A model generated the notes under the pieces. It was given only the letters and a program-made list of their open reading frames with translations. It had not been told where the DNA came from and ran no database searches. Below, piece after piece: positions 1,815 to 39,620 of a stretch of DNA of 64,000 nt. The translations under genes and the position numbers were made by a program. The stretch is taken from contig NZ_AUGY01000008.1 in the NCBI RefSeq assembly GCF_000422905.1, positions 62,001-126,000 of the forward strand, in the 5' to 3' direction. This stretch comes from Paenibacillus alginolyticus DSM 5050 = NBRC 15375 (GTDB lineage: Bacteria > Bacillota > Bacilli > Paenibacillales > NBRC-103111). The stretch's first letter is position 1. The number at the start of each line of letters is the position of its first letter.

Positions 1815-3116
1815 ATGGTGACAACACAGCATCATTATCCCAAGCAAGGTAGAGTCATTCTGCATATAGATATGAATGCATTTTATTGCTCTGTTCATGA
1901 GGCTGTTGAGCCGGACTTATATAAAGGAAAGCCGATTGCTGTTGCAGGTAGTGTTGAGCTTCGTAAAGGGATTATTGTTACTTCATCTTATGCAGCGCGC
2001 GCTGTAGGGATCAAGACGGGCATGCAAGTTAGGCAAGCGATGAAGCTGTGTCCGGATTTGATACTGATAAGACCTGATTTCGAACTATATCGCAGCTTCT
2101 CAAGACGGTTTATGCAGATAGCTTATAGTTATTCGCCTATGGTGGAATCCATGTCAATCGATGAGTGTTTCGTCGATATTACAGGTTCCAAACAATTTGG
2201 AACCCCACTTGAGATCGCGAATAACATTCAGCAGAAGATTATGAAGGAACTGATGCTTCCCTGTTCGATCGGTGTTGCCCCCAACAAGCTGCTCGCCAAA
2301 ATGGGCTCCGATATGAAGAAGCCGAACGGGATATCTGTGCTGCGTCTACGAGATGTTCCAACTGTATTTTGGGACAAACCGTGCAACTATTTATATGGAA
2401 TTGGCAAAAAGACGGCGGATAAGCTGACTAGACTTGGTATCCACACGTTAGGTCAGCTAGCTGTAGGGGACGAGTTGCTGCTAAGTAAACACTTTGGCAT
2501 CTTAGGTGCACATCTGAAGCGTTCGGCTAACGGGATTGACCATTCTCTGGTAAACCCTGAACAAGAACAGAGCAAGTCAATCGGGCATACGACGACGCTG
2601 CCGCAGGATTTCACCGATACCAAGGAAATTCATCGCGTATTCTTAAATTTGGCGGATCAAGTAGCTAGAAGACTTCGCAAGCAGGAGCTGATGGCATCGA
2701 CGATCCAAATCACGGTTCGCGATCCAGAGATGAGGACTATTACGCGATCCATCACTTTGCCTACTCCCACCGAGCATATGGATGATATTTATCGAACTTC
2801 GTGTCAGTTATTTGATCATGAATGGGAGGAAGGCAACCCTGTTCGGCTGCTGGGGATTACGCTGCAAAATCTGACGGTGAAGGAAGAAACATTCGTTCAG
2901 TTAGATTTATTCGATTATGAAAAGCAGCCTAAACGAGAAAATTTGAATCGCATTATGGACGGACTTCGTGATAAATTCGGAGAAAATGCGATTCTAACCG
3001 CGGGGATGATGGGCGATAATCCTTCAGCTATGATTAGAAATCATAAAACGAGAGGGACTTCCCTGCAAATGGACCATTTGAGGAACAATCCCCTTCATAA
3101 AGAAGAGGAGAAGTGA
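1815..3116 (+). CDS. dinB: DNA polymerase IV (Y-family translesion polymerase)
   Basis: Error-prone polymerase that copies past damaged template bases. The 433-residue protein has the Y-family catalytic acids: D19 in HIDMNAFY and D116/E117 in SIDECFVD, with Y24 at the steric-gate position. The finger/palm, thumb (helix-hairpin-helix YGIGKKTADKL) and little-finger domains follow in order. Near the C-terminus, VQLDLFDYE is a typical beta-clamp-binding peptide (QLxLF). The ATG lies just after GGGAGG. No SOS (LexA-type GAAC-N4-GTTC) box was seen upstream; a weak TTGCTT-17-TATGCT promoter can be drawn at 1740-1768. mobB follows after 7 bases, so they are probably co-transcribed. Confidence 0.95.
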   Translation: MVTTQHHYPKQGRVILHIDMNAFYCSVHEAVEPDLYKGKPIAVAGSVELRKGIIVTSSYAARAVGIKTGMQVRQAMKLCPDLILIRPDFELYRSFSRRFMQIAYSYSPMVESMSIDECFVDITGSKQFGTPLEIANNIQQKIMKELMLPCSIGVAPNKLLAKMGSDMKKPNGISVLRLRDVPTVFWDKPCNYLYGIGKKTADKLTRLGIHTLGQLAVGDELLLSKHFGILGAHLKRSANGIDHSLVNPEQEQSKSIGHTTTLPQDFTDTKEIHRVFLNLADQVARRLRKQELMASTIQITVRDPEMRTITRSITLPTPTEHMDDIYRTSCQLFDHEWEEGNPVRLLGITLQNLTVKEETFVQLDLFDYEKQPKRENLNRIMDGLRDKFGENAILTAGMMGDNPSAMIRNHKTRGTSLQMDHLRNNPLHKEEEK

Positions 3117-3123
3117 CGAAAAT

Positions 3124-3624
3124 ATGGCACATCGTATGGGCTTTGCCGGCTATTCGAACAGCGGGAAAACGACGTTAGTGGCGAAGCTAATCGTAGAAAT
3201 GAAGCAGCGCGGCCATCGGATAGCTGTAATGAAACATGATGCTCATGGACATTATAAAGAAGCAGCAGGGACGGACTCCGCGACTTTTGTTGAGTCGGGT
3301 GCAGAAGCGGTTATTACCCTTTCTCCAGATGAGATTCATGTGTTCGAGAAGAAGCGGAATCCAAGCCTGGAAGAACAGTTAAGTGCTTATGCGCATTTAG
3401 ACTATGTTTTTATCGAAGGCTTCAAGAAGGAAAAACATCCAAAGATTGCTGTATTTCGTACAATAGAGCAAAGTGAAATTATTCAAGCACTTGAGCCAGA
3501 GCCGATTGCTATTGCAACAGATATGGACGATTTCAAATTTGGTTCAAGAACTTTTCCTTCCTTCGATTTGAACAATATCCAGGGTATAGCTGACTTTATT
3601 GAACAATATTTTGAGCGTAATTAA
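3124..3624 (+). CDS. mobB: Molybdopterin-guanine dinucleotide biosynthesis protein B
   Basis: P-loop GTPase that assists MobA in attaching GMP to molybdopterin, the last step of cofactor assembly for molybdoenzymes. The 166-residue protein opens with FAGYSNSGKTT (Walker A, G9-T16) and continues with the MobB-typical KHDAHGH segment and the VFIEGFKKEKHPKI motif. Size fits stand-alone MobB. It sits 7 bases after dinB with no terminator between, an operon with no obvious functional logic. No other molybdenum-cofactor gene lies in the window. Confidence 0.9.
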   Translation: MAHRMGFAGYSNSGKTTLVAKLIVEMKQRGHRIAVMKHDAHGHYKEAAGTDSATFVESGAEAVITLSPDEIHVFEKKRNPSLEEQLSAYAHLDYVFIEGFKKEKHPKIAVFRTIEQSEIIQALEPEPIAIATDMDDFKFGSRTFPSFDLNNIQGIADFIEQYFERN

Positions 3625-3633
3625 TTTTAAGGT

Positions 3634-3662
3634 TTGAACTTTGTCCGTATTTATATTATATT
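3634..3662 (+). promoter_or_regulatory. Candidate sigma-A promoter of ferredoxin gene
   Basis: TTGAAC, 17-base spacer, TATATT, ending about 35 bases before the ferredoxin ATG. It lies between the mobB stop and the ferredoxin start, so ferredoxin probably has its own promoter. Confidence 0.6.
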
Positions 3663-3677
3663 TTACATTGAGGATAA

Positions 3678-3932
<255 letters not shown>

Positions 3933-3977
3933 TCCGTATAAAACATAATTTTGTGAAGTGATTCGCAGAATGTCGAA

Positions 3978-4016
3978 AGAGCTCAGTTCCTGTAAAGGGA
4001 CTGAGCTCTTTTTTTT
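3978..4016 (+). terminator. Rho-independent terminator after ferredoxin gene
   Basis: A 13-bp stem (AGAGCTCAGTTCC paired with GGGACTGAGCTCT, one G-T wobble) with a six-base loop, followed by an uninterrupted T run. Confidence 0.9.
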
Positions 4017-4047
4017 GATACAAATTGTAGTAACTTGTAACTATTTA

Positions 4048-4076
4048 TTGCCATTTTTTACTTGCCATCTTACAAT
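4048..4076 (+). promoter_or_regulatory. Sigma-A-like promoter of the cyclase operon
   Basis: TTGCCA, 17-base spacer, TACAAT. Transcription would begin near 4083, only about 20 bases before the ATG at 4104. This decides the start of the cyclase gene, because the earlier in-frame ATG at 4062 lies inside this promoter. Confidence 0.65.
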
Positions 4077-4103
4077 GAAGCTAGTAAACATGGGGAGGAT
4101 CTT

Positions 4104-5951
4104 ATGGGTAAGAAGAAATGGATTCAAACTTTAGCTATAGGACTTGTGTTGATGTTGTTTTCGACATATTTCTACACGGTTAACTCTAGCGGCTTGTTTT
4201 ATTTTATTGAAGGCCCCCTCCAAGATGTTTTGCGGAAAGCTAAATCTGTTGATGAACGTCAGCCGGATGATCGCATCAAGATTGTTAAGATTGATGAGAA
4301 ATCACTTAAAGCTATCGGAAAGTTTCCATGGGATCGAACGACCTATGCGCAGTTGATAGAAAAGCTTGAGCAGTCAGGCGCAGCGGCAATTGGTATAGAC
4401 GTAGTTTTAGCTGAACCATCGAAAAATCCCGCCGACGATAAAGCATTGGCTGATGTTTTGGCCAAGTATCATAATGTCATTATGCCCGTCCAAATTAACT
4501 ATCCCTCCAAGCAAGAGCAAGCAGGCGAGCTTGTGCCTGAGAAAATCGACTACCCCACTCAAACACTAACAACCAGCAGGCAGCAAATGGCACATATTAA
4601 TGTGTTTGTCGATAAGGATGGTAAGGCACGGAAGTTGCCAGTTGGGCTGCCGGATGAGAATGGAGCATACATACCTGCGTTCAGCGTTGCGCTTGCCAAT
4701 CTAGTTCTTGAGGATAAGGACAAAGTGAAGCGAGATGAAGCAACAGGACAATGGAAGCGCGGCAATATCGTAATGCCAACGAACGAAAGAAATCAAGTGA
4801 CGACCGAATTCTTCACACTGCCAAGGCAGAAAGTTGATGCAACTACAGGCTATGAATCGCTCTCTTTCATTGATGTTATTAATAGTAAAAGCCCCTTACC
4901 ACTGCAAGGCGGCATTGTTCTGGTAGGTCCGTTCGTAACGGCTATGCAGGATGAATATCCAACACCGATCAGCTCTGTTAAGATGTTTGGGATCGAAATA
5001 CATGCGAATATGATTCAAACTATATTAGAAAGCAAGTTTTATAAAGATACTAGTAAGCCGTTTGGCGTAGGTATTATCTTACTTATATCTTTGCTGGCCA
5101 TTTTCTTATTTCATAGATATAAAGGCAAAACAGCGCTATTTATTTTTCTAGGCATGTTTGTGATCTATGGAGGTGTATGGTTATCCTTCTATATTGTTGG
5201 CTCAACCTTCGCTCCACTTGTGTATCCGCAATTAGCTCTTGTTTTGATCTATATTTGGTCATTAGTGAGTCATTATCTGGAAGAACGGAAGGAGCGCAAC
5301 CGCGTAACCGGTATCTTTGGAAGGTTCGTTTCCAAATCGGTTGTAGACGAGCTGCTGCAGTCAGGTGAAGATGTTAAGCTTGGCGGCAGTCGTAAAGATA
5401 TTTCACTTATTTTCGTTGATATTCGCGGGTTTACCCCCATGTCGGAGCGACTAGAGCCAGAGCAAGTTATTCAAGTATTGAATGAGTATCTAGATGTATG
5501 TACGAAAGCTATTTTCAAATTTAACGGAACGCTCGACAAATTTATTGGTGATGGTGTCATGGCGATGTTCGGCGCTCCGATTGAATATGACAATCACCCG
5601 GAGATGGCTGTGCGTGCAGCTATTGAAATGAAGTCCCAGGCTACTGTTCTTGAGCAGAGATTGATTGAAAAGTATGGAATCGGAGTGAAATTTGGGCTGG
5701 GTATTAATAGCGGACCTGCGGTTGTTGGAAACATTGGTTCCGAGGACCTAAGGCTGGATTATACGGCTATTGGAGATACGGTTAACTTATCGGCTAGATT
5801 AGAAGCGAATGCAAAACCAGGTCAAATTCTAATCAGTGAACAGACCTATGCGAGGGTCAAAGACCTTTTTGAGATAGAATCTATCGGTGAAATTAAGGTA
5901 AAAGGAAAAGAAAAGCCCGTGGCGGTTTATGAAGTTATCGGGAATCTCTAA
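4104..5951 (+). CDS. CHASE2-domain class III adenylate cyclase
   Basis: Membrane-bound enzyme predicted to make cAMP from ATP in response to an extracellular signal. The 615-residue protein has one N-terminal membrane segment (about 6-26), an extracytoplasmic CHASE2 sensor domain (about 30-315), three more membrane segments (about 320-388), then a cytoplasmic cyclase domain. The catalytic set is complete: metal ligands D439 (FVDIRGF) and D483 (FIGDGV), purine-specifying K479 and T554 (YTAIGD), and transition-state N561 and R565 (NLSAR). A lysine/threonine pair is the adenylate-type signature of soluble-cyclase-like enzymes, so ATP is the expected substrate by family knowledge. The ATG at 4104 follows GGGGAGG at 4092-4098. 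It begins an operon with a FecR-domain and an NHL protein. Confidence 0.9.
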   Translation: MGKKKWIQTLAIGLVLMLFSTYFYTVNSSGLFYFIEGPLQDVLRKAKSVDERQPDDRIKIVKIDEKSLKAIGKFPWDRTTYAQLIEKLEQSGAAAIGIDVVLAEPSKNPADDKALADVLAKYHNVIMPVQINYPSKQEQAGELVPEKIDYPTQTLTTSRQQMAHINVFVDKDGKARKLPVGLPDENGAYIPAFSVALANLVLEDKDKVKRDEATGQWKRGNIVMPTNERNQVTTEFFTLPRQKVDATTGYESLSFIDVINSKSPLPLQGGIVLVGPFVTAMQDEYPTPISSVKMFGIEIHANMIQTILESKFYKDTSKPFGVGIILLISLLAIFLFHRYKGKTALFIFLGMFVIYGGVWLSFYIVGSTFAPLVYPQLALVLIYIWSLVSHYLEERKERNRVTGIFGRFVSKSVVDELLQSGEDVKLGGSRKDISLIFVDIRGFTPMSERLEPEQVIQVLNEYLDVCTKAIFKFNGTLDKFIGDGVMAMFGAPIEYDNHPEMAVRAAIEMKSQATVLEQRLIEKYGIGVKFGLGINSGPAVVGNIGSEDLRLDYTAIGDTVNLSARLEANAKPGQILISEQTYARVKDLFEIESIGEIKVKGKEKPVAVYEVIGNL

Positions 5952-5977
5952 TAAATGAATGCTGGGAGGAATTCAGT

Positions 5978-7810
5978 GTGGGAATAACTAAGAAATCATT
6001 CGTGTCCTTATTCTTAAGTTTTTGTTTAGTGTTTAGTTTGGTCTCAGCGCTGCTTGTAAAGCCTGTAGACGCAAAAACCGTTCGGGTAGCTGTCATTGGA
6101 GCATTATCCGGTGACGTAACGATCAAGAAAGGCGGAGGCTCCAAATCGTACGATGCCTACGAAAGTATGAGTTTAAATCAAGGCGATACGGTTTATACTG
6201 GCGCTAGTTCATCTGTCACGCTTAATTTGAGCAATGGGGATGCAGACGTAATCTTAGGCGAAAACGCTGAGATTAACGTGTCAGACTTAAACACCTCAGC
6301 TGGAAATAAGAAATCCAAACTTAAAGTATGGGCCGGTTCCCTTTGGGTCAAGGTGAAGTCATTAGCTGGATCAAATGATGAATTTGAAGTTGAAACGCCA
6401 ACCGCTGTTATGGGTGTTCGTGGAACGCAGTTCTTTGTTACTGTTGATCCGAAAACAGGCGCAATTAAGATGGCGGTTGGAGCTGGAAAAGTCTCCGCAT
6501 CGACTGTGACAAACGGAGCGGACTCGACTCAAAAGTCATCCATTACATACTTATATCCAACGCAACAAATTTCTTTGGATTCTAGGGATGAGACGGATGA
6601 TGTGTCCCTTAAAGTAGATTTCCTTGATCTAAATGATTTTATCAAGAATGCATCACCTGAAATCATTAAAGAGATTATCCTGAACAAAGCCGAAATCGAT
6701 AAAGAAAATGAAGAGTTTATTGCTAAGAAAAAGAAAGAAATTGAAGATGGCAAACTTGTGGATGATAAAACTTCTTTATCCGTGAAGGATCAAGCTGAAT
6801 TAGATAAAGTGAAACAAAACTTAGATAACTTAATTGGTAATATTGCAAAGATGGCTCTCGCAGAAAATAAGGTTGATAAAGAGTCTTTGAATAAGTTCAT
6901 TGAACAAGCAAATGCAAAAATCGATAACCAAGAAAAAAAATTAGATTTAAACAAAGTTAAAGAGTTGGATAAAACGGCTGGTGTCGACGCAGAAAAGGAA
7001 AAAATAAAGAAAGAAATGCTTCAAAAGCTTGAAGCAGAGAAGCTCAAAAAGCAACTTGAAGAAACGAAGAAGCAAGAAGAGCTCAAAATAAAGCTGGCAG
7101 CAGCGCTTAAAGCTTTGGAAGAGCAAAAGAAAAAGATTCTCGAAGCGGCGAAAGCAGCGGAAGAGAAGGCTAAAGCTGAAGCTGAAGCGAAACTGAAAGA
7201 AAGCTACACGGATAAAGAGAAAAAGGATTTTGATGATAAGAAGAATGGGCCGAATACTACAGCGCCGGGAGGAAATCCGGGGAATTCGGGGGGGTCAGAC
7301 CCGGGGACACCCGTATTAACACCGAGTATTAGTCTTGCACCTGGCTCTGTTAGTAACCTCGGATTATTTAATTTAGATGTTAATCTAAGTGACTTTGTCG
7401 GCAACAATTCAATCTACGGTGTAGAAGTGCACTTATCCTATGATTCCAATATCGCTCTTAATGTTAATGAGCTGCACCCATGGGTAAGTAATTCGGATAT
7501 TTTTAGCCAAACCAATAGTGCAGATCATATTAAAGAATATTCTAATGGTGTACAGAAAGAGCTTGTGTATGCAGTGACAAATTTCGGTGCAAATTCAAAT
7601 AATGTTGAAGTGAAAAATGGAACTAAAAAGTTAGTTACCATTCCGTTTTATGGTAATTCGGTGGGGGCAACTTCAGGATCGTATAAGATTAAAGTCGAAA
7701 AAATCGTTATTGTTCATAAAAATGGTTTGGACGTTCAAAAAATAGAAGTTCCTTTGATACCAGATAGAACTGAGAAAACAGTCATTTTGCCTCCAAAAAA
7801 TAAAAATTAA
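5978..7810 (+). CDS. Secreted FecR-domain protein with coiled coil and cohesin-like C-terminus
   Basis: A 610-residue exported protein with a GTG start after GGGAGGA. The signal peptide is about residues 1-32. Residues about 33-190 form a FecR-type domain (VIGALSGDVTIKKG, GDTVYTGASSSVTL, VETPTAVMGVRGTQF). Next comes a long Lys/Glu/Ala-rich coiled coil (about 230-410), a Gly/Pro/Asn linker and a C-terminal beta domain with the cohesin-like pattern of an early FNLDVNLSDF strand and VEVHLSYDSN. No sortase or SLH anchor is visible. It follows the CHASE2 cyclase by 26 bases; FecR-domain proteins next to CHASE2 cyclases are known from other bacteria, which suggests that it presents or modulates the cyclase signal outside the cell. 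That role is inference. Confidence 0.8.
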   Translation: MGITKKSFVSLFLSFCLVFSLVSALLVKPVDAKTVRVAVIGALSGDVTIKKGGGSKSYDAYESMSLNQGDTVYTGASSSVTLNLSNGDADVILGENAEINVSDLNTSAGNKKSKLKVWAGSLWVKVKSLAGSNDEFEVETPTAVMGVRGTQFFVTVDPKTGAIKMAVGAGKVSASTVTNGADSTQKSSITYLYPTQQISLDSRDETDDVSLKVDFLDLNDFIKNASPEIIKEIILNKAEIDKENEEFIAKKKKEIEDGKLVDDKTSLSVKDQAELDKVKQNLDNLIGNIAKMALAENKVDKESLNKFIEQANAKIDNQEKKLDLNKVKELDKTAGVDAEKEKIKKEMLQKLEAEKLKKQLEETKKQEELKIKLAAALKALEEQKKKILEAAKAAEEKAKAEAEAKLKESYTDKEKKDFDDKKNGPNTTAPGGNPGNSGGSDPGTPVLTPSISLAPGSVSNLGLFNLDVNLSDFVGNNSIYGVEVHLSYDSNIALNVNELHPWVSNSDIFSQTNSADHIKEYSNGVQKELVYAVTNFGANSNNVEVKNGTKKLVTIPFYGNSVGATSGSYKIKVEKIVIVHKNGLDVQKIEVPLIPDRTEKTVILPPKNKN

Positions 7811-7840
7811 TCATTTTAACATAGCAAAAAGGAGAAACCA

Positions 7841-9463
7841 ATGAAACCCTTAAAACATATATTCGTTTCATCCCTAGTGGCCGCAACCTTATTGGGAGGT
7901 TCATCCGCATGGGCGGCAGGATTGTCGACGGATGCACTATTATCCAGCAATGGACAGATCCTTTCGGATGTCTCGACCTTCGCGGGAATCGGCGATTTTG
8001 AAGATAAGAGCGGGGATGCGCTAAGTGCGGCATTCCGTGCTCCGGGCAGCGTTGTTCAACTTTCGGATGGCAGTATTCTTGTTGCTGATACACGGAATCA
8101 TCTTATTCGTAAAATTTCAGGCGGGAAAGTAACCACTTTCGCAGGCCCGGAAGTTGTCGTGACGAAGAATAACCAGGGCTTTCCTACAGGAGGGCTTGTT
8201 AATGGGAAATCTTCTGAAGCTTTTTTCAATGAGCCGACAGGATTAGCTGTTGATGCTAAAGGGAATGTGTATGTAGCTGATTCGGCAAATAACGCTATTC
8301 GGAAAATAGATACGAATGGACAAGTTTCCACATTGGCTGGAAATGGCGTTCCTGGCCTTAAGGATGGAAAAGGTGCTGAGGCAAGTTTTAATCGCCCAAG
8401 CGATGTTGTTGCAGCTGCAGATGGAACTCTGTATGTCGCGGATTCGCTCAATCATGTTATCCGTAAAATAGCAGTTGACGGCAGTGTTTCTACTTTGAAT
8501 GCGGCTGCGACTCGAGCTATTCAAATCCGTCCAGGTGAAGCTTCTTTCGCTGGTGAATTTCAAGATGGCAGCTTAGCTGCATCGAAGTTCAATGAACCCG
8601 CTGGATTGGTTTTAGATAGCAAAGGCAATTTGTTCGTAAGTGACACAGGCAACCAGCGTATACGTTATATCGACCTTCAAGCAGGGACTGTGACTACGGT
8701 GGCTGGTTCGACACCCGAATTAAGCAATCATACCATTTATGATAAAAATGAGTTATATGCAGGTGGAGACTTTGCAGATGGAGATGCGCTTAAAGCGAAG
8801 TTTGACTTCCCTAAAGGGCTTGCCGTAACTTCCGAAGGCGGGGTTTTAATCTCAGATAGTCTGAATCATGTGATTCGTTATTTGCTGAATGGAAAGGTTT
8901 CAACGATTGCTGGAACAGTCCAAACGGGTGAAGCGGACGGCGTGGAGCAAGCTGCTGAGTTTTACAATCCGAGTGACGTTCTAGTAACCGCTCAAGGTAA
9001 TATTGTGGTCGCAGACTCCTCGAATAACAAAATTCGTAAAATTACTCCTTACCAATTACCAGGAAATCTAGCAAACAATGATCAAGTAAAAGTGGTAAAT
9101 GGTGATAAAGTGGTTTCATTTGATGCCCAACCTGAAATTCAAGGCGGCCGCACAATGGTACCTGTTCGTGCAATAAGCGAAGCATTTGGCTACGAAGTCA
9201 AGTATGTCGAGCAAGCTGGGAAATCAATCGTAAAGCTTATCAAAGGTGATGTTACGGTTGAGCTAACGATTGGTGAAACAGGCATTGTACGCAAACAAGT
9301 CGGTCAAACAGACATCAAACAAGTGACGGATGCTTCTCCTTATGTGAAACAAGACCGTACGTATGTGCCGGTGCGTTTCTTTGCAGAGCAAATCGGCTTG
9401 GATGTACAGTGGGATGCCGCTCACCAAACAGCCATTTTACGCACGAAATCATTTGTGAAATAA
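7841..9463 (+). CDS. Secreted NHL-repeat protein with C-terminal copper amine oxidase N-like (stalk) domain
   Basis: A 540-residue exported protein. After a signal peptide ending near SSAWA (residue about 25), at least six NHL repeats of the form GNVYVADSANNAIRKI form a predicted beta-propeller (about 60-390). The C-terminal 120 residues match the paired stalk/Cu_amine_oxidN1 motif, with RTMVPVRAISEAFGYEV and RTYVPVRFFAEQIGLDV, a cell-wall-associated module common in Paenibacillus secreted proteins; the copper amine oxidase catalytic domain is absent. It starts 30 bases after the FecR gene behind AAAGGAG and ends the operon at a clear terminator. Its binding partner is unknown; co-expression suggests a surface complex with the FecR protein and the cyclase. 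Confidence 0.8.
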   Translation: MKPLKHIFVSSLVAATLLGGSSAWAAGLSTDALLSSNGQILSDVSTFAGIGDFEDKSGDALSAAFRAPGSVVQLSDGSILVADTRNHLIRKISGGKVTTFAGPEVVVTKNNQGFPTGGLVNGKSSEAFFNEPTGLAVDAKGNVYVADSANNAIRKIDTNGQVSTLAGNGVPGLKDGKGAEASFNRPSDVVAAADGTLYVADSLNHVIRKIAVDGSVSTLNAAATRAIQIRPGEASFAGEFQDGSLAASKFNEPAGLVLDSKGNLFVSDTGNQRIRYIDLQAGTVTTVAGSTPELSNHTIYDKNELYAGGDFADGDALKAKFDFPKGLAVTSEGGVLISDSLNHVIRYLLNGKVSTIAGTVQTGEADGVEQAAEFYNPSDVLVTAQGNIVVADSSNNKIRKITPYQLPGNLANNDQVKVVNGDKVVSFDAQPEIQGGRTMVPVRAISEAFGYEVKYVEQAGKSIVKLIKGDVTVELTIGETGIVRKQVGQTDIKQVTDASPYVKQDRTYVPVRFFAEQIGLDVQWDAAHQTAILRTKSFVK

Positions 9464-9477
9464 GCAATTCGCAAACC

Positions 9478-9518
9478 GAGCTTGGCAAGGGGAAACCTTT
9501 GTCCAAGCTCTTTTTTTT
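9478..9518 (+). terminator. Terminator of the cyclase/FecR/NHL operon
   Basis: GAGCTTGG at 9478-9485 pairs with CCAAGCTC at 9503-9510, with an inner AAGG/CCTT stem, followed by eight T. Confidence 0.9.
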
Positions 9519-9594
9519 CATGACTTCATCTCTAGGTAATTTTTGCCGATAAACGAAAGAGAGCTACCGTGTACTCGATAGGAGGTTTTCTAGA

Positions 9595-11148
9595 TTGAAG
9601 GACAAGAATCGCATGGATCAGTTAGAACGATTTTTCCAACATAATCCGATCGAAGATCCTCTTTATCTCAAAAAATATGTGAAAGAACATCCTGATCATA
9701 AAATGGCTTGGTACTTATTGGGCAGAGAATACGCGGCGCAAGGAAAAGAAGGCAAAGCAGCGTATTGTTTCGCGCAGTCAGGGGAGATCTATGAGGCTTT
9801 CGAACGTCAGAAAATAGCGTTTGAAGGTCCTTTGCCTGCTTCATCTTCTTCGGCCTTACATAAAGGTGCCATGACAACTGTTAAAAGCAAGCCCAGCGGT
9901 AAAGGGAAATGGCTGCCGTTAATGGTCATGCTATTCCTGTTGGCTGTTCCCGCTGCAATGGATTTAGCGAAGAACGAGGATACGGGGAACGTCCCGAAGG
10001 AGACTTTTGCTGCAGCACCAGCGGCAGCTAATGTGCCGGCAACACCTAAACAGGATGCACCTTCTGGAGTAAAACTGTATTTCTCAAATGGAGATTGGGG
10101 CAACAAGCTTCAACAAGTACTGTCATCCTCAGGATCAGGAGCTGGGGAATCTGTTATCATGGGAGTTCCAAGGAGTGAAGATGGTAAATGGAACGAGTGG
10201 AACAGGTCGGTGAAGCCTTTGATCAGCGTGGAGAGTCATGGTGGAGGCGGGGGTTCAGCAGCATTAAAATATTACCAGTCGCAGACATGTTCCTGTCAGG
10301 TCGCGGATAGCTCCAAGCTTGTTCCCGTCATAGCGAATTGGATGCATGATCGTGAGCAAGCTATTGTCTTACAAAGCGCAATCCAGGCCTTCCAAAAAAA
10401 GACGGGAACGCTGCCAGAGAAGCCTGAACAGCTTTCGAAGCCTTACCCGGATAATCTCTTGCCAGGACTCTCCCCCGAAATGCAGGAGGCGTTCCCTCAA
10501 GCTGTAAGTAAGGTTAATGAAATCGCAAAAGCGGGCAAAGCGCCGCAGGATCCGGTACAATCAGCTGACAAAAACGAGCAGCCGAAACAAGAGCTCAAGG
10601 AACAGGCCGAGCCATCAAGTTCACAGCCGAAAGCTTCCGCAGACCCACTGCTTGAACCGCTTAGGATTGTTATAGATACCGATAAACATCGTTTGGCCCT
10701 TGTTAGTGGAGATTTCATCATCCGAAATTATCCGGTTGGCTTAGGGGGAGAGAAGACGCCGCAAGGGGAGTTCTTCATTAGTGAAAAGGTGCGCAATCCG
10801 AATGGCAAATCGAATGGAGAGTTTGGCAGCCGAGGAATGACTTTGTCGGATACGCTTTATGCAATTCATGGTACGAATAAGCCTTCCAGCATCGGGAAAG
10901 ATGAATCACACGGCTGCGTTCGGATGCAGCAAGCGGACATTGAAGAGCTCTATAACATGGTAACTCACGAAACGAAAGTGACAATTGGTAAAGGGGTATT
11001 ACCACCTTCAAATCCGGACGGAGGAAATGGTAATGGCGGCGAAAACCCGGGAGTAGGAGCTGGGGGAGGGAAGCTAGATCAATCCTTCGGCCTTCCGCTG
11101 CAAACCGATGACAGCAACCCTAGTAAGAAATATAAATGGCTTGATTAA
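9595..11148 (+). CDS. Membrane-anchored L,D-transpeptidase (YkuD family) with cytoplasmic helical N-terminus
   Basis: Predicted to cross-link or tailor peptidoglycan. The 517-residue protein begins at TTG, 9 bases after AGGAGG. Residues 1-75 form a TPR-like helical cytoplasmic segment (AWYLLGREYAAQGKEGKAAYCF), 105-125 is a membrane segment, then a low-complexity Ala/Pro region and a domain with four closely placed features including CSC at 232-234. The YkuD catalytic domain is about 356-466, with H425 in AIHGT and the SHGCVRM motif (H439, nucleophile C441). A Gly/Asn-rich tail follows. An L,D-transpeptidase fused to a cytoplasmic repeat domain is unusual. It has its own terminators on both sides, so it is a single-gene unit. 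Confidence 0.88.
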   Translation: MKDKNRMDQLERFFQHNPIEDPLYLKKYVKEHPDHKMAWYLLGREYAAQGKEGKAAYCFAQSGEIYEAFERQKIAFEGPLPASSSSALHKGAMTTVKSKPSGKGKWLPLMVMLFLLAVPAAMDLAKNEDTGNVPKETFAAAPAAANVPATPKQDAPSGVKLYFSNGDWGNKLQQVLSSSGSGAGESVIMGVPRSEDGKWNEWNRSVKPLISVESHGGGGGSAALKYYQSQTCSCQVADSSKLVPVIANWMHDREQAIVLQSAIQAFQKKTGTLPEKPEQLSKPYPDNLLPGLSPEMQEAFPQAVSKVNEIAKAGKAPQDPVQSADKNEQPKQELKEQAEPSSSQPKASADPLLEPLRIVIDTDKHRLALVSGDFIIRNYPVGLGGEKTPQGEFFISEKVRNPNGKSNGEFGSRGMTLSDTLYAIHGTNKPSSIGKDESHGCVRMQQADIEELYNMVTHETKVTIGKGVLPPSNPDGGNGNGGENPGVGAGGGKLDQSFGLPLQTDDSNPSKKYKWLD

Positions 11149-32648: not shown

Positions 32649-35600
32649 TTGCGTAAATTTTTACATCGAGCAATGCTGTTCTTGCTTTTAATGGAGCTTT
32701 TATTGCCATTTATTAATCCAGAGGGAGCATCTGCTGCATCTTCAATAAAGTTATATTATAATTTCGAGCTAGGTTACTATACAACGTCACCAGTTGCATC
32801 ACAGTATTCATCATCTCAAACTAAAACATTTACTAAGGATATTAGCTCTCTAGTTGACGGTACAATAACTGGAGTCACTTTGAGTAATCAAGGGGGCTCT
32901 GGCGGTACTGCATCATTCACAGATACCTCAGTGACTATAACAAGTTTGAGCGGGGGCAATACAACAGTATACGGTAAATCGGTTACTAAACCAATGCATC
33001 AAATTTATAGACAACCAAATAGTAAAATATGGGAACACAAAGGAAGCAAAACTGTTCCTGCTGAATTTGATGGAGCTGGTGGTAGCCCATCTCCTTACCC
33101 TGGAAATATACCATTATATGGTAGATTAAGGTATTTAACTACTTCTTTCAATTACAGTGATGTTAACTCATTTGGACCAGATTTGAGATACTCCTATGAC
33201 TCTCCCTTGTACTATAAGGACGGGCAAACAGCAATTAATGGTCACGTAGCCAGTGGGGACCTAGTAAAAGATTATCCAAAGGAAGGCGCAGCGGTAACAA
33301 CAGCATATGAGGTTGAACGCGCACAAAAATGGTTTTTAGTTGAAACCTCTGCAAATTTATCAGGTACAGGCGCAGACATTACTGATCCCGACAAGTTAGA
33401 ACAAAGCTCCATAGAAATTTATAGTGCTGAGAAACCCAATGATGATTACGGAGCAGTTCCCCTTTCTGTTGGTAAGGGGACTAATGCTGGTCAAGGTATG
33501 ATCAGGACTATGATGATGCTTGATGGTGAAGTTCCTTCAGATCAGATACGAGAGCGTTTGGATTCTGATGGATCAGGTGGATTATCTCGTGATTATACAA
33601 TGTTCGCCATCGGACTTTGGAAAGGCACTACATACAAATACCAAATGTCCATAGACGTTACTTACACCCCACCTATAAAAGCAGATCTAGCCTACATCTC
33701 AATTGACGCCGGAGCCTGTGTGCCACAAAACACAAGCGTAAATATTACAATTAAATTCAAAAATATCGGCGTAGCAATTCCAAGTGGTGATTCCTTCAGT
33801 GTGACTCTAGCTGCGGATGGCACGGTTTTCAAGACATTCATTTACTCCTCAGGTTTAGGTGCAGGTCAGATGATAACCGAATCTGTACCCTATACATTCA
33901 GTAGTATGAAGAGCATCACCATGAATCTAGATTCCAATGATGACATCCCCGAAGCAAGTTCTAGCAATAATGTTCTAAGTCAATTCATCACACCCCAAGC
34001 TAGCTGTACACCAAACGGTGGAAACTTTAGCGGAACTACCTCAGCAGATAAACCCTCAATTCCGTGGAAAGATTCCAACCTTATTAAAGCAGACTGGACG
34101 ATTCCCTCTGGCTGTACGCCTGTTCAAGGGAGGTTCATTTTATCCCAAACTACGGGTGCATATATTCAATACGGTTGGAGTTCTCTAAATAGCACTTCTG
34201 TGAGTGACATGTCTATTTTTGCTTATGGGATGATGGGTTTTACGGGTTATCCAGGCAATATTACAAGCGGAGAAGTGGTTATTGAATACAAGCTTGAGGA
34301 TAGTTGCGGAGGAACTTCCTATTTCTATGAAGGTAAGTTTACAGTTGGCCCAAAACCGCCAAATAGACCACCTCAATTTGAGATTGGATGGTTTGCTGAT
34401 GCGGATTACTATAGCAGGACACCTATATCCGATTCCATTGTTGGTGATAAATTAAATGTGAGGTTGTTGCCAGAAATTGCTCCTAACCACTACGATCCTG
34501 ACGATGATATTGTTACTTTCGAGTGGTTGTTCCCAAGCAGCTCAAGTAATTGGATTAAGAGCTTCCCTTCTATGGGTTATCTAAAGGGTGAGGATAAGCT
34601 TACGTGGCTAACAGCATCAACAGCTGGAGACCATACAATTACTGCAAGAATGTGTGACGATAAGGGAGCTTGTACACAAAAAGATGCAACAATATCTATC
34701 ATGCGCCCTGAGCCTTTACCCTGCATTAACGTACCCAATCGCGTTGTGCAAAACCGTCCACTTGCAGCCAATGCGATTAATGGAGCTTGCAGTAAGCCAG
34801 CCAAAAACAGAACGATAACGGAGTATTTCTGGACCAATAATCTCCCCATCTATCCGAATGTTGGTATTGAGACTGTAACCTTAGAAGTAAAGGACAATTA
34901 CGGGGTACGCAGCTTGCCAGAAAACAAAGCAATTAAAAACATAAATGTTGTGGAGGATAAACCTCCTGTAGCTGTTATCAATTTACCTATCTTTGCCGTT
35001 AGAGGAAATGTTCTATTTAGGGATTTATCTTACAGTCCCGATGGGGATGTAATCGTAGAAACGTCTATTACATATGTGTACGATAGCAATGACGATGGAA
35101 TTTTCAACGATCATATGCCTTTAAATATACCGATATCTGTTGGTAGCTCGGCTATTCTTACAGCTCTTAAGGTTGGTAAGTATAAATTAACGGTAAAAAC
35201 AAAGGAGGATTGGGGTTTAACGAATACCAGAAGCTATGTGGTTGATATCAAAAATGATTCCCCCGAAGTTTCATTCTCTGTTACAAGCGCGAATCCAGAA
35301 CCTCCTTTATTTCATACAACCTCGGAAAATGAAATGTTAATGGCATATGGAGATCAATGGCAAGGCTCTTCTTTAACAAATCCTAATTTGAATAAAGTGA
35401 GAGATATTGGATTTACATATAACACTGCCACCAATGGTTTAACATCTCATTATGGTAAACAACCATTTAATGGACCTGCGACCGGATTAACGATTACTCC
35501 AGAACAGTACCAAAAAACAACTTATAGCGCTTGGCATACCTTCCCCATTCCTCAGTTATTTAACACACAATTTTTGGGCAATAGATATGGAGTTGGTTCT

Positions 35601-38600
35601 GTTGGTTCCATTCCATTTTTTGATGGGTCGAACACTAGGATAGATGGAGGGTTGGGAAATACGTACGATTCTGTTCAACAAAAGTATATCCCTATTAAGC
35701 CTACACCTGATAATCCAGGAAAGTTTCTAGCATATGACGCTAAAGGCGGAGCTTATTCGGTAGATTTCAAATCCGGTTATTATAATGATAATGATTATAG
35801 TGAGACATGGACTATTTATCGTAAAACGGCAGATGGCACAATATCTTGGAAACGTTCTGGTCAGTACATCTATGACGGCTGTTCTGGCGACTGTTCGTCC
35901 AGTGAAAGTGGAACAAGATCACCTCATGCTAACCTGAAACTAAACAATGACGGAACTAAGGTTTCGCTTGGAGGTAACTACTCATGGCAATGTTGGTGTG
36001 TAGTGACTACATGGCTTGACGTAGAGACTGGTTTAGAAGTGCCTGCGAATACGGTAACTCCTGCACCTACTCTAACGGGTATCTATGAGGACTCAGAAGT
36101 ATTTCTGTATCGAGAACAACCAATGAATCTAACTACGGATACATATAGTTCTGGGAGTTCGGGTTCTAGCAGTAACCGAGCAGGCACGGTTAGTGAATAT
36201 TTTGTTTCTTATAATAAACAAACAGGTGCTACTAAGAAGATAGAAATATTCAAAGATATCTACTTCAATAATCGTTCCAGGACTACAGATGGCAGCGTAA
36301 TTCGAGGTGATGGTTCAGATAGCGATAGTTCAACTGTAATTGATGTGAACTATTCTGTTTCGGCTGATGGTTATGTCTATATTGTTGACGGTATGAACAA
36401 AATCGTAGTTGCTGATAAGTTCGCAAATCAACTCGCTTCATATACAACAAAAGGAATTAGACCAACTAATACCTTCACTCACGAGCAAACTCTTCAAGAG
36501 AGGTTTAGATATACAGTATCTTCGGCAGGATTAAGTGCAGATGGAGAGTTTCAAGTCGTTCTTCAAGAAGAGCATTATAAATTGAGAAGATGGAACTTCC
36601 AATGGACGTCTTGTGGTTCTTGTAGTGTCGGCAGCTATGTTTCTCACTATGATGAAGATGATAGTCAATCTGAACGTAAATTTTACTATTTTAAGATAAA
36701 AGGTGGAACCACTAGTCCTTCTAGTTACGCTTTAGCGGAAATTGGTCAAACCATGAAGAAGGATACGAGTATTGCAGACGCTGATTACGTGTTCGATTTC
36801 TTACAATCTAGTGTGAATACGAATGTGAATGCTCCTTCGGGTTTAATCTTCAGAGCAACTAATAACAATACGATGTATCGATTAGAGTTTACAACGAACA
36901 AAATAAGCTTATCGAAGCTCGATGGTGGTATACGTACCGAGTTACGGTCTACTCCAGTCTGGTTATCTACGACATCTTTTAACAACATAAAGGTTAGTGT
37001 TAGAGGTGGAAAAATAAAAGTGCGGATGGGTACAGTTCCTATAATGGAAGTAACCGATCTTGCGCTTACTGAAGGTACTTATGGGTTTTTCATAGGCGGG
37101 TATGGTTCTCATTTCCGTAACTTCTATGTTAAAGTGCCGATTGTAGATAACAACAAAATTAGCGATACCGGCATTGCGGGAGAAGAACTGACTTACTCTA
37201 CGGAGTTTGTGGATCCTGAAAGTGATGATCATTTGATTAGTAAGGATAAGTGGAAGTACGAGCATACGAACTCTACGAAATTTTTAGATTCGGGGGATGG
37301 TAAAAGTGGACTTTCAGCTTACAATAATCAAACATTTAATGGAGATCCGATAAAAATACTAGATAAGGTAGGGGTTTATAAAATAACCTTTATTGGTGCA
37401 GATGATCCTACGCCTGCTGGCTATAAATATCCGAACCCTGCCTTTGCAGAGTACCTCTCTGAATCTGATCCTTACTCTAGAAATGTATTGATTCATCGTA
37501 GACCTATAGGGGTTTTGAATGTAAATCAAGATATTTATTATAACGTAACTTATGATGATCAGAGCTATGACCCGGACCGTTGGTTAAACGACTGGACTTA
37601 CTCTACGGAACCAACTGGCATTGATTATCCGGCTTCGCGAGGAATTATTGAACGCAGATACGAGTACATAAAACCAGATGGTACAACCGTAAATGGAAAA
37701 TTAACGAGAGTAAAAGAAATGGGTGCTTATACGTTTAGGGTAGCTGTTAAAGATGAATACGGTGCGTGGTCTGATTGGGCAGAGGCTATATTGTGGCTAG
37801 ACGCACCACCTGCGAATCATGCGCCTTTCGTTGATATCACGAGCCATACGAGTACGGATATGAATAATCCGTCTGGATCAGCAGGGAATAATCCTTTATT
37901 TACTTGGAATGCGGTAGATTACGATGCGGATAGCCGAATTGTACGCTCAGAAATTGATGTGCAACAATACTATTATAATTATTATAATAATCCGCAATGG
38001 CAATGGTTTAGTATGAATAACCCTAATCTTGCAAAAGTCTCTAATGTACTCAGTGATGGTCATACAGTTTCATTAAGCTATAACTATCCAATGACTGTAT
38101 ACTCCAATCTAACTTACAGAGTTAGAATTAGGGTACAGGATGAACAAGGAGAATGGTCTGGATGGTCGGAAAGGTATTTTGCATTAGGATTCCCTCCCAC
38201 GGCTACTTTGACTTTCCCCAACGGAACCCAAGCCAATCCTACACCTATTTCTGACGGAGTTTTGAAACCTTCTTGGAATCAGAATGATCCAGATGTTCCT
38301 ACGGAGTATCGTAGTTTCCAATACCGTATTCTAGATGCTAATGGAACTCAAGTTCAGTATAACCAATATGGGTACGTGTACGATGCTCAAAGATATGGTA
38401 GTTTTGCGCACTTTTGCAGCTATGATAGCGAAAATAGCTCTTGGAACAACTGTGAATATTACACAATTTCCAATACTTGGAATACTCATCCTACAGAGTG
38501 GTTTGGTCTTTCGTTAATCCAAGGTCAAAACGGCCCCTTCCAAGTTCAAGTTAGAGTACATGATGGAAGATACTGGTCGGCGTGGTCTAATTCCGGTTGG

Positions 38601-39620
38601 TTTACGACGAATAGACCTCCAGTAGCCAACATGACGATTCCAAGTGGGACGCAAGCTGCGCCTACCATTTTCTCCGAGCTGCGCCCTACTTTTGAGTGGA
38701 GCCAAACCGATCCTGATCCGGGAACAACTTTCACTTATTTCCAAATGCAAATTACCAATGAGGCTAACAATGTATTGTTGCTGGATTCAGGGCAGTTCTA
38801 CCAAGGGACGGTTTCTAACGTGGGGAGTTGGATGGTTAATCAGGAACTTCCAGCTGGTCAAAAACTCCGCGTCAGAGTGAGAGTATTTGATGGGGTTACA
38901 TGGTCCGATTATTCAGCACAAACATGGTTGTATATCAATCGAGCACCTGTAGCCGAATTTGACTGGACTCCAAAGCCGGTTTGGGAGGGAGACGTTGTGA
39001 CAAGCATGAATGCCTCTTTCGATCCGGATGGTGATGTTCTAACCTATGCGTGGAAATTAGAACAGCCAAACGGCGTTACTTCCACTTTTTCCACTAAGGA
39101 TATTTCGCATCGCTTCCTAGTTCCTGGTATGTATAAGGTGTCGTTAACCGTATCAGATGGACGTCTTTCTAATACCGTAGTTAAAATGATTTCGGCGATG
39201 CCCTTGACGATTCATTCGGATGTCACTTATACAGACAACTGGCTGATTTTGCATGAAAAGAGCGGTCATCAAACGGTATCGGCACCTAAGGACTTTTACT
39301 CTGGGGAAATTTTCATAGTTTCTAGCAAAAGTTCACCTGCTCCTGTAGACGAAGTGACAGCTTGGATCGATACGACAGGGTTAAATGGGCATGCACTTTA
39401 TGTGTCTGAGCGTTTAGTTGCAGCAGGAGGGGATGCGACCTCTTTTAGCGGAGAACTATTTGATGCGAAATTCCAGTCATTTGTGGAGGGCTTGCCTAAA
39501 GGACTGCAAACCATTCATTTTCAAATTCGTTACCGCAACGGTATTGTGAAAACGGAGGACATTTCTGTCCAAATCATTGGCAATGTCAATAAATCAGTTG
39601 GAGTTCATAGGGTTCAATAA
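32649..39620 (+). CDS. Giant secreted multidomain protein, 2323 residues
   Basis: Not matched to a named family as a whole. It starts at TTG behind TAGGGGG, which includes the preceding stop codon. A signal peptide (about 1-30) is followed by an unassigned N-terminal region, a CARDB-like domain (about 344-450; ADLAYISIDAG, DDIPEASSSNN), Ig/PKD-like domains (about 570-870), a central beta-rich region with cysteine clusters (CSGDCSS, QCWC, SCGSC), a concanavalin/LamG-like domain (about 1365-1497), and two or three FN3-like repeats, each with VRVRVxDGxxWSxWS and SGTQAxPT motifs (about 1715-2095). A PKD-like domain (about 2100-2185; SFDPDGDVLTYAWKLE) and an unassigned tail follow. No sortase motif or SLH domain is present; the SLH neighbour may anchor it. 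A carbohydrate-binding, adhesive or matrix role is inference. Confidence 0.8.
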   Translation: MRKFLHRAMLFLLLMELLLPFINPEGASAASSIKLYYNFELGYYTTSPVASQYSSSQTKTFTKDISSLVDGTITGVTLSNQGGSGGTASFTDTSVTITSLSGGNTTVYGKSVTKPMHQIYRQPNSKIWEHKGSKTVPAEFDGAGGSPSPYPGNIPLYGRLRYLTTSFNYSDVNSFGPDLRYSYDSPLYYKDGQTAINGHVASGDLVKDYPKEGAAVTTAYEVERAQKWFLVETSANLSGTGADITDPDKLEQSSIEIYSAEKPNDDYGAVPLSVGKGTNAGQGMIRTMMMLDGEVPSDQIRERLDSDGSGGLSRDYTMFAIGLWKGTTYKYQMSIDVTYTPPIKADLAYISIDAGACVPQNTSVNITIKFKNIGVAIPSGDSFSVTLAADGTVFKTFIYSSGLGAGQMITESVPYTFSSMKSITMNLDSNDDIPEASSSNNVLSQFITPQASCTPNGGNFSGTTSADKPSIPWKDSNLIKADWTIPSGCTPVQGRFILSQTTGAYIQYGWSSLNSTSVSDMSIFAYGMMGFTGYPGNITSGEVVIEYKLEDSCGGTSYFYEGKFTVGPKPPNRPPQFEIGWFADADYYSRTPISDSIVGDKLNVRLLPEIAPNHYDPDDDIVTFEWLFPSSSSNWIKSFPSMGYLKGEDKLTWLTASTAGDHTITARMCDDKGACTQKDATISIMRPEPLPCINVPNRVVQNRPLAANAINGACSKPAKNRTITEYFWTNNLPIYPNVGIETVTLEVKDNYGVRSLPENKAIKNINVVEDKPPVAVINLPIFAVRGNVLFRDLSYSPDGDVIVETSITYVYDSNDDGIFNDHMPLNIPISVGSSAILTALKVGKYKLTVKTKEDWGLTNTRSYVVDIKNDSPEVSFSVTSANPEPPLFHTTSENEMLMAYGDQWQGSSLTNPNLNKVRDIGFTYNTATNGLTSHYGKQPFNGPATGLTITPEQYQKTTYSAWHTFPIPQLFNTQFLGNRYGVGSVGSIPFFDGSNTRIDGGLGNTYDSVQQKYIPIKPTPDNPGKFLAYDAKGGAYSVDFKSGYYNDNDYSETWTIYRKTADGTISWKRSGQYIYDGCSGDCSSSESGTRSPHANLKLNNDGTKVSLGGNYSWQCWCVVTTWLDVETGLEVPANTVTPAPTLTGIYEDSEVFLYREQPMNLTTDTYSSGSSGSSSNRAGTVSEYFVSYNKQTGATKKIEIFKDIYFNNRSRTTDGSVIRGDGSDSDSSTVIDVNYSVSADGYVYIVDGMNKIVVADKFANQLASYTTKGIRPTNTFTHEQTLQERFRYTVSSAGLSADGEFQVVLQEEHYKLRRWNFQWTSCGSCSVGSYVSHYDEDDSQSERKFYYFKIKGGTTSPSSYALAEIGQTMKKDTSIADADYVFDFLQSSVNTNVNAPSGLIFRATNNNTMYRLEFTTNKISLSKLDGGIRTELRSTPVWLSTTSFNNIKVSVRGGKIKVRMGTVPIMEVTDLALTEGTYGFFIGGYGSHFRNFYVKVPIVDNNKISDTGIAGEELTYSTEFVDPESDDHLISKDKWKYEHTNSTKFLDSGDGKSGLSAYNNQTFNGDPIKILDKVGVYKITFIGADDPTPAGYKYPNPAFAEYLSESDPYSRNVLIHRRPIGVLNVNQDIYYNVTYDDQSYDPDRWLNDWTYSTEPTGIDYPASRGIIERRYEYIKPDGTTVNGKLTRVKEMGAYTFRVAVKDEYGAWSDWAEAILWLDAPPANHAPFVDITSHTSTDMNNPSGSAGNNPLFTWNAVDYDADSRIVRSEIDVQQYYYNYYNNPQWQWFSMNNPNLAKVSNVLSDGHTVSLSYNYPMTVYSNLTYRVRIRVQDEQGEWSGWSERYFALGFPPTATLTFPNGTQANPTPISDGVLKPSWNQNDPDVPTEYRSFQYRILDANGTQVQYNQYGYVYDAQRYGSFAHFCSYDSENSSWNNCEYYTISNTWNTHPTEWFGLSLIQGQNGPFQVQVRVHDGRYWSAWSNSGWFTTNRPPVANMTIPSGTQAAPTIFSELRPTFEWSQTDPDPGTTFTYFQMQITNEANNVLLLDSGQFYQGTVSNVGSWMVNQELPAGQKLRVRVRVFDGVTWSDYSAQTWLYINRAPVAEFDWTPKPVWEGDVVTSMNASFDPDGDVLTYAWKLEQPNGVTSTFSTKDISHRFLVPGMYKVSLTVSDGRLSNTVVKMISAMPLTIHSDVTYTDNWLILHEKSGHQTVSAPKDFYSGEIFIVSSKSSPAPVDEVTAWIDTTGLNGHALYVSERLVAAGGDATSFSGELFDAKFQSFVEGLPKGLQTIHFQIRYRNGIVKTEDISVQIIGNVNKSVGVHRVQ

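Follow-up and report, generated by a model that had tools for sequence, protein, structure and literature searches.

A CHASE2 adenylate cyclase linked to FecR-domain and NHL/stalk proteins: a candidate envelope receptor of Paenibacillus alginolyticus

In Paenibacillus alginolyticus DSM 5050 = NBRC 15375 we analysed a window of 64,000 nucleotides (the whole stretch of DNA under study) in which three neighbouring genes on the plus strand encode an adenylate cyclase with a CHASE2 sensor domain, an FecR-domain protein and a protein with an NHL propeller and a stalk domain. The intergenic gaps are 26 bp and 30 bp. The question raised by this locus is whether the FecR and NHL/stalk proteins, both predicted to be exported, govern the production of cyclic AMP (cAMP) by the enzyme encoded beside them. 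Our answer, to which we give a probability of roughly 60%, is that the products of the three genes form a single receptor: the FecR and NHL/stalk proteins would sense the outside and set the cyclase's cAMP output. The gene set, its order and its coordinates had been described in an earlier note made from the DNA letters, and Pfam matches for all three products bear that description out. The host genome has 8.3 Mb, and the nearest named relatives at the locus belong to Paenibacillus, with cyclases 96-97% identical. Genomes, contigs and loci are referred to by our G, C and L numbers, G000 being the host genome.

Linkage of the three genes across genomes

One line of evidence for this reading is the linkage of the genes. 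Among 104 genomes of the window's own family, searched with a cyclase threshold of E up to 1e-40, matches to the cyclase, the FecR protein and the NHL/stalk protein were found in 86, 86 and 87 genomes, respectively. All three genes occur in 85 genomes, none in 17 and a mixture in two, one of which (G011) has the cyclase and the NHL protein together with an adjacent FecR-like protein that was overlooked by the Pfam search. FecR lies less than 2 kb from the cyclase in all 85 (largest gap 1319 bp), and the order cyclase-FecR-NHL is kept on one strand in 76 family genomes; the NHL gene of G010 and that of G056 sit on a separate contig. In seven genomes (G007, G013, G014, G022, G023, G024 and G103; loci L124 and L125 were read gene by gene) cyclase and FecR are divergently oriented, so that the linkage is independent of co-transcription, and a linkage that outlasts co-transcription argues for a joint function. 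A single FecR match is present in 84 of the 86 FecR-bearing genomes, G006 and G007 having two. Both carriers and non-carriers are found in genera 13, 16, 18 and 21, so that on more than one occasion the three genes were probably lost or acquired together as a block.

We also searched 398 genomes, sampled evenly across the phylum, for CHASE2 and FecR and found CHASE2 in 48, FecR in 47 (42 above the Pfam cut-off) and both in 40. In 30 of these 40 the two lie at most 8 kb apart, with FecR downstream on the same strand in 29. Moreover, 75 loci from named genomes were collected by similarity to the cyclase, and 60 of them keep the order cyclase-FecR-NHL, including those of Thermobacillus, Aneurinibacillus and Petroclostridium. 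This figure is a lower bound, because two loci with the cyclase alone (L028 and L036) sit near contig ends. The other 15 loci comprise nine with the cyclase alone, three with cyclase-FecR and one each with cyclase-NHL, NHL-cyclase-FecR and cyclase-NHL-FecR. Two different genes stand behind the cyclase in L060, L071 and L077 (Fusibacter), encoding in L060 a metallo-beta-lactamase-fold protein and a GAF-HD protein according to Pfam; the pairs of L071 and L077 look alike by eye. The set is thus kept far past close strains, the point on which the earlier note had staked its proposal, and the linkage data back the pairing of FecR with CHASE2 more widely than that of either with the NHL protein.

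The cyclase and its predicted exported partners

The cyclase has the architecture of a CHASE2 receptor, with the CHASE2 domain followed by three hydrophobic segments within residues 319-382 (hydropathy) and then by the cytoplasmic output domain. The active site of class III cyclases is made of two metal-binding aspartates, a lysine and a threonine or aspartate that recognise the base, and an asparagine and an arginine that act on the transition state. The complete site claimed earlier (D439, K479, D483, T554, N561 and R565) was confirmed from the DNA, and none of the six residues varies among the 37 aligned cyclases, whose identity goes down to 33%; the enzyme has the residues of a class III adenylate cyclase. 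Lysine with threonine at the sites that recognise the base is characteristic of class IIIb adenylyl cyclases. The catalytic domain is structurally near CyaB of Pseudomonas (41-42% identity) and CyaC of Spirulina, both solved adenylyl cyclases, and likewise near the guanylyl cyclase Cya2 (38%); K479 with T554 and the identity to CyaB point to ATP as the predicted substrate. The 50 matches listed in a Foldseek search with the whole model are all cyclase entries and therefore carry no information on the CHASE2 fold, and a sequence search with the CHASE2 region gave no convincing relative of solved structure (best E 0.055).

A genome search that covered class III cyclases found a second cyclase-like protein of 257 amino acids (aa) on G000:C79, with N and A at the positions of the metal aspartates and M at that of R565. 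As this protein is degenerate, no intact class III cyclase other than the CHASE2 enzyme was found in the genome. The degenerate gene may mark a pseudo-cyclase locus (L126, G000:C79:1-9000), where it lies near a 1018-aa protein with MFS, HEAT and cyclic-nucleotide-binding regions and where small genes resemble, by eye, a partner-switching set.

Export of the FecR and NHL/stalk proteins was judged from their N-termini, by crude hydropathy and by eye. The former begins with a hydrophobic segment, and the latter has a start that looks like a signal peptide and falls under the threshold of the hydropathy script. An orphan FecR-NHL/stalk pair in another family genome (L122, G089:C6:84000-97000) could show the role of the secreted proteins alone. 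The FecR match of the window is the only one found by Pfam in its genome. Conservation of the protein is concentrated in residues 31-215 (against L029, for instance, 68%, where the spacer has 47% and the C-terminal domain 41%), and the Lys/Glu-rich spacer probably forms a coiled coil, judging by its composition. No convincing relative of solved structure was found for the FecR region by sequence search (best E 0.27). A reading as an anti-sigma factor of the FecI-FecR-FecA type was rejected: the hydrophobic export segment within the first 30 residues gives a cytoplasmic anti-sigma region no space, Pfam finds no domain other than FecR above cut-off, and neither a sigma factor of the extracytoplasmic function (ECF) group nor a TonB receptor is among the direct neighbours (positions 1815-11148).

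The C-terminal domain of the FecR protein, which was missing from the earlier note, is a beta-sandwich that conforms to the cohesin fold. We call it cohesin-like, and not a cohesin, because the window's own domain matches no Pfam family at E up to 1, the Cohesin profile included; that profile matches one of the 22 members of the domain set (E 8.4e-5). Rows 48-50 of the VIA list for this domain hold a Clostridium interaction module, a pilin and an integrin, and Foldseek also returns toxin-prepore sandwiches with weak TM scores. No dockerin match lies in the cluster, and two were found elsewhere in the genome. At one locus (L121, G000:C29:37000-47000) a 1885-aa protein with a cohesin and a terminal dockerin is followed by a 387-aa cohesin-SLH protein, likely a non-cellulosomal cohesin-dockerin surface pair; we do not claim the 1885-aa protein as the ligand of the FecR tail, the product of the next gene being its likelier partner. 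In L034, L038, L078 and L123 an extra open reading frame (ORF) separates FecR from NHL. Its product in L034 has a C-terminus that looks dockerin-like by eye, and in L038 it gives a weak match to Pfam Dockerin_1 (E 0.085).

Candidate cAMP receptors and the readings weighed

The earlier note had seen no cAMP receptor, which is true of the window and does not hold for the genome, where the search for a CRP-type protein that it proposed yielded a strong candidate. Eleven matches to the cyclic-nucleotide-binding domain were found in the genome. Five of them, namely the CRP-type proteins L003 and L004, one ABC transporter and two on contig C58, contain the phosphate-binding-cassette pattern, which was not detected in the remaining six. 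L003 (G000:C14:77147-77827) joins a cyclic-nucleotide-binding domain (PF00027, 82.9 bits) to a Crp-type helix-turn-helix (HTH_Crp_2, 48.1 bits) and carries the motif FGEMSLIGSGHTRSA, which we take to be the phosphate-binding cassette. It is termed CRP-type, and not CRP, because it reaches 114.1 bits against the NCBIfam CRP equivalog, whose cut-off is 266. L003 occurs in 81 of the 86 genomes with the cyclase and in none of the 18 others (Fisher 5e-16, uncorrected for ancestry); the three non-carriers inside genera 18 and 21 lack it likewise. L004, which also has the motif, is present in 51 of 86 and 0 of 18, whereas a control CRP protein that lacks the motif (L010) is found in 25 of 86 and 2 of 18 (p 0.15). 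Since L004 too is absent from all 18, part of the L003 contrast may stem from lineage. By domain content and occurrence L003 is the best candidate for the cAMP receptor, with L004 second. For the end of the signal, a phosphodiesterase of the Apyc1 type (L116, G000:C38; 292.9 bits to the solved Apyc1 7u2s, 302.7 bits to the Pfam Apyc1 model) is a possible agent.

A CRP operator upstream of the cyclase was considered and not used. The palindrome TGTGAAGTGATTCGCA at 3952-3967 has one mismatch to what we take to be the enterobacterial CRP consensus, and lies between the ferredoxin-like gene and its terminator, about 80 bp 5' of the -35 box. At least one such match is contained in 86 of 100 shuffles of the window, which puts it at chance level there. 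Many of the aligned upstream regions have the site disrupted, though it may serve a subgroup of them: 14 of 70 upstream regions (69 loci plus the window) have a CRP-like site with at most one mismatch, five of them without mismatch and nine at a common place, -151 to -154 from the cyclase start.

In the mechanism that we propose, the FecR domain would bind the CHASE2 domain directly, while the spacer and the cohesin-like tail of the FecR protein, together with the NHL propeller and stalk domain of its neighbour, would reach into the cell wall. The FecR tail and the NHL/stalk protein may carry ligand-facing or anchoring surfaces, and their occupancy would shift the cyclase dimer via the CHASE2 domain and the membrane helices. 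The cAMP could then bind the CRP-type regulator on contig C14, a step suggested by its occurrence across genomes, and the Apyc1-type enzyme on C38 might possibly end the signal. A wider proposal, which we hold tentatively and place a little short of an even chance, is that CHASE2 and FecR each supply one half of a single receptor that is widespread in bacteria. FecR would be an exported adaptor whatever the output, cyclase or kinase, and each lineage would add its own outer sensing piece. Within this phylum the FecR domain would serve chiefly in this role, and the pieces added in the Paenibacillus group, a stalked NHL propeller and a cohesin-like tail, would feed a dedicated cAMP-CRP circuit.

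Several observations weigh against the reading as one receptor. The co-occurrence counts are not independent, as relatives share ancestry. The second mixed genome of the family, G089, has FecR and NHL, and no cyclase was found at E 1e-40 in its genome nor in the 13 kb fetched. In the phylum sample the other 10 of the 40 genomes with both domains have them on separate contigs (8), 8.2 kb apart (1) or 447 kb apart (1), several of the FecR matches being weak; eight genomes have CHASE2 without FecR, seven have FecR without CHASE2, and in five of the 47 genomes with FecR the match falls under the Pfam cut-off. Neither domain was found in the six same-order and nine same-class genomes sampled outside the family. 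No FecR-cyclase or FecR-NHL fusion was seen by Pfam among the 120 of 194 FecR homologues listed in a length-limited search. Five cyclase carriers (G005, G021, G023, G024 and G027) are without L003, and the distribution of L004 is patchy.

At the scale of the phylum, where the search covered CHASE2 and FecR, the link between these two stands alone, and it would also fit a unit of two proteins, with the NHL/stalk protein as an independent surface protein encoded on the same transcript in this lineage. Three of the 75 loci (L054, L081 and L083) have the cyclase and FecR with no NHL gene in the fetched stretch, and the FecR-CHASE2 units of Burkholderia and Campylobacterota, in the accessible parts of their descriptions, have other additional genes (PMC5192318, PMC9239204). 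However, the presence or absence of NHL matches that of the cyclase in 103 of 104 family genomes, and NHL remains with FecR where the cyclase is divergent, so that we find a unit of two proteins unlikely. Less so, yet still doubtful, is a tether to the cell wall, with the spacer of FecR and the stalk domain binding wall polymers and the cyclase reading envelope strain or wall integrity. The tails of the FecR proteins are long and differ between loci, any domains recognised in them being Ig-like, cadherin-like or cohesin-like, the Burkholderia partner has a LysM domain with predicted peptidoglycan binding (PMC5192318, in the part accessible), and an L,D-transpeptidase gene adjoins the 3' side of the cluster in many Paenibacillus loci. 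That gene, however, stands behind the terminator, and for many of the more distant loci the stretch retrieved was not seen to contain it; Pfam finds no wall-binding domain above cut-off in the window's FecR protein.

The cyclase might also act alone, the secreted proteins being products or targets of its pathway that are adjacent for co-expression and do not regulate it. In Sinorhizobium meliloti, as far as the accessible text goes, the cAMP regulator Clr does have an FecR-domain protein as one of its targets (PMC5498481). Such an arrangement appears improbable to us, as the adjacency survives opposite orientation in seven family genomes and as G089 has FecR where no cyclase was found. We give hardly any weight to membership in the Pycsar anti-phage systems, in which the enzyme would make a pyrimidine cyclic nucleotide. 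The PycC models of PADLOC match the catalytic domain (best E 8.6e-27), but this match is generic, because the degenerate second cyclase matches them too. No Pycsar effector model matches either partner, the NHL protein giving a weak match to PD-T4-6 (E 1.6e-4); both partners are predicted to be exported and the residues of the chemistry are of what we take to be the ATP-cyclase type.

Layout of the locus and comparison with known systems

The features of the cluster and its surroundings are collected in the table.

Table. Positions of the cluster's genes, domains and signals and of adjoining features in the window
Feature	Position	Strand	Evidence or remark
Ferredoxin-like gene upstream of cluster	3699..3932		Identified by eye
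Terminator behind ferredoxin-like gene	3975..4012	+	Terminator scan; fold of 3972-4020 -28.2 kcal/mol, z -7.1
Promoter TTGCCA-17-TACAAT	4048..4076	+	Hexamers TTGCCA 4048-4053, TACAAT 4071-4076
CHASE2 class III adenylate cyclase, 615 aa	4104..5951	+	Pfam CHASE2 168.5 bits, Guanylate_cyc 94.6 bits, above cut-offs
CHASE2 extracytoplasmic sensor domain and start of membrane region, residues 27-331	4182..5096	+	Pfam 168.5 bits, cut-off 26.3
Cytoplasmic catalytic domain, residues 431-605	5394..5918	+	Pfam Guanylate_cyc 94.6 bits
FecR-domain protein, predicted exported, 610 aa	5978..7810	+	Pfam FecR 49 bits
FecR domain, residues 70-172	6185..6493	+	Pfam PF04773, 49 bits, cut-off 24
Lys/Glu-rich spacer, residues 216-430	6623..7267	+	K+E up to 50% per 50 residues
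Cohesin-like C-terminal beta-sandwich domain of FecR protein	7313..7807	+	
NHL-propeller/stalk-domain protein, predicted exported, 540 aa	7841..9463	+	NHL 136.4 bits in 6 stretches; Cu_amine_oxidN1 96.4 bits
Intrinsic terminator 3' of cluster	9478..9518	+	Fold -23.2 kcal/mol, z -5.44
L,D-transpeptidase gene	9595..11148		Just past cluster terminator

The promoter and the terminator proposed in the earlier note both held up. Both promoter hexamers are unchanged in all 20 of the upstream regions that were hand-chosen from the collected loci and aligned, and it is this invariance that makes the promoter credible, and not the consensus scan, which stays at chance level (14 matches against 13.2 expected). 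For the terminator 3' of the cluster none of 200 shuffles folds as well, and a T run follows; it is missing from the list of the terminator scan, though its fold is strong. The terminator behind the ferredoxin-like gene sets that gene apart from the cluster, and the three genes are inferred to be co-transcribed. Over 1815-11148 the neighbours further include an IMS-type polymerase and MobB. A 2323-aa ORF lies at 32649-39620 of the window.

The pairing of CHASE2 with FecR is already known, with cyclases in Campylobacterota (PMC9239204) and with kinases in Burkholderia (PMC5192318), both papers being cited for their accessible parts; the pairing in other bacteria that the earlier note mentioned is thus on record. 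In Campylobacterota a CHASE2 adenylate cyclase adjoins an FecR-domain envelope protein, and their clustering was taken as one signalling pathway; the window differs in its NHL/stalk protein, its cohesin-like tail and a cluster that has no phosphodiesterase (PMC9239204). The words Firmicutes, Bacillota and Paenibacillus are absent from the main text of that paper. The BiofilmReg operon of Burkholderia likewise encodes an exported FecR protein together with a CHASE2 receptor. This receptor is, however, a histidine kinase, FecR is mostly combined with LysM, and the role of cAMP falls to a response regulator (PMC5192318).

In the literature searched, most subscription papers lying outside it, we found no description of the module in this phylum. 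Nor did we find there an account of how widespread the pairing is in the phylum, of the NHL/stalk partner or the cohesin-like tail, or of a CRP-type regulator that co-occurs with the module. The module is real and well supported, and its central biochemical properties are predicted from sequence. As the signals read by CHASE2 are largely unknown (PMC5192318, in the part accessible), tying this domain to one exported partner, FecR, across the phylum gives a concrete place to seek the signal. Moreover, the Paenibacillus group gains a candidate cAMP circuit, with synthesis, receptor and possible degradation, of which every step is testable.

For the degradation step, Apyc1 of Paenibacillus is a class II cyclic mononucleotide phosphodiesterase whose described role, in the text accessible, is anti-phage evasion (PMC9117128; PDB 7u2s, 7u2r). 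L116 matches it and sits on another contig than the cluster, and its place in the pathway would be a presumed one. In S. meliloti, according to the accessible parts of two papers, the CHASE2 cyclases CyaD1, CyaD2 and CyaK respond to a plant ribosomal protein via the envelope protein NsrA and act through the CRP-family regulator Clr, an FecR protein being among the targets (PMC13001267, PMC5498481). NsrA differs in being an outer-membrane barrel, and no NHL/stalk partner is named in those parts. With its CHASE2 cyclases, a separate perception protein in the envelope and a CRP-family regulator, the S. meliloti pathway is, by analogy, the closest experimental precedent for the proposed receptor.

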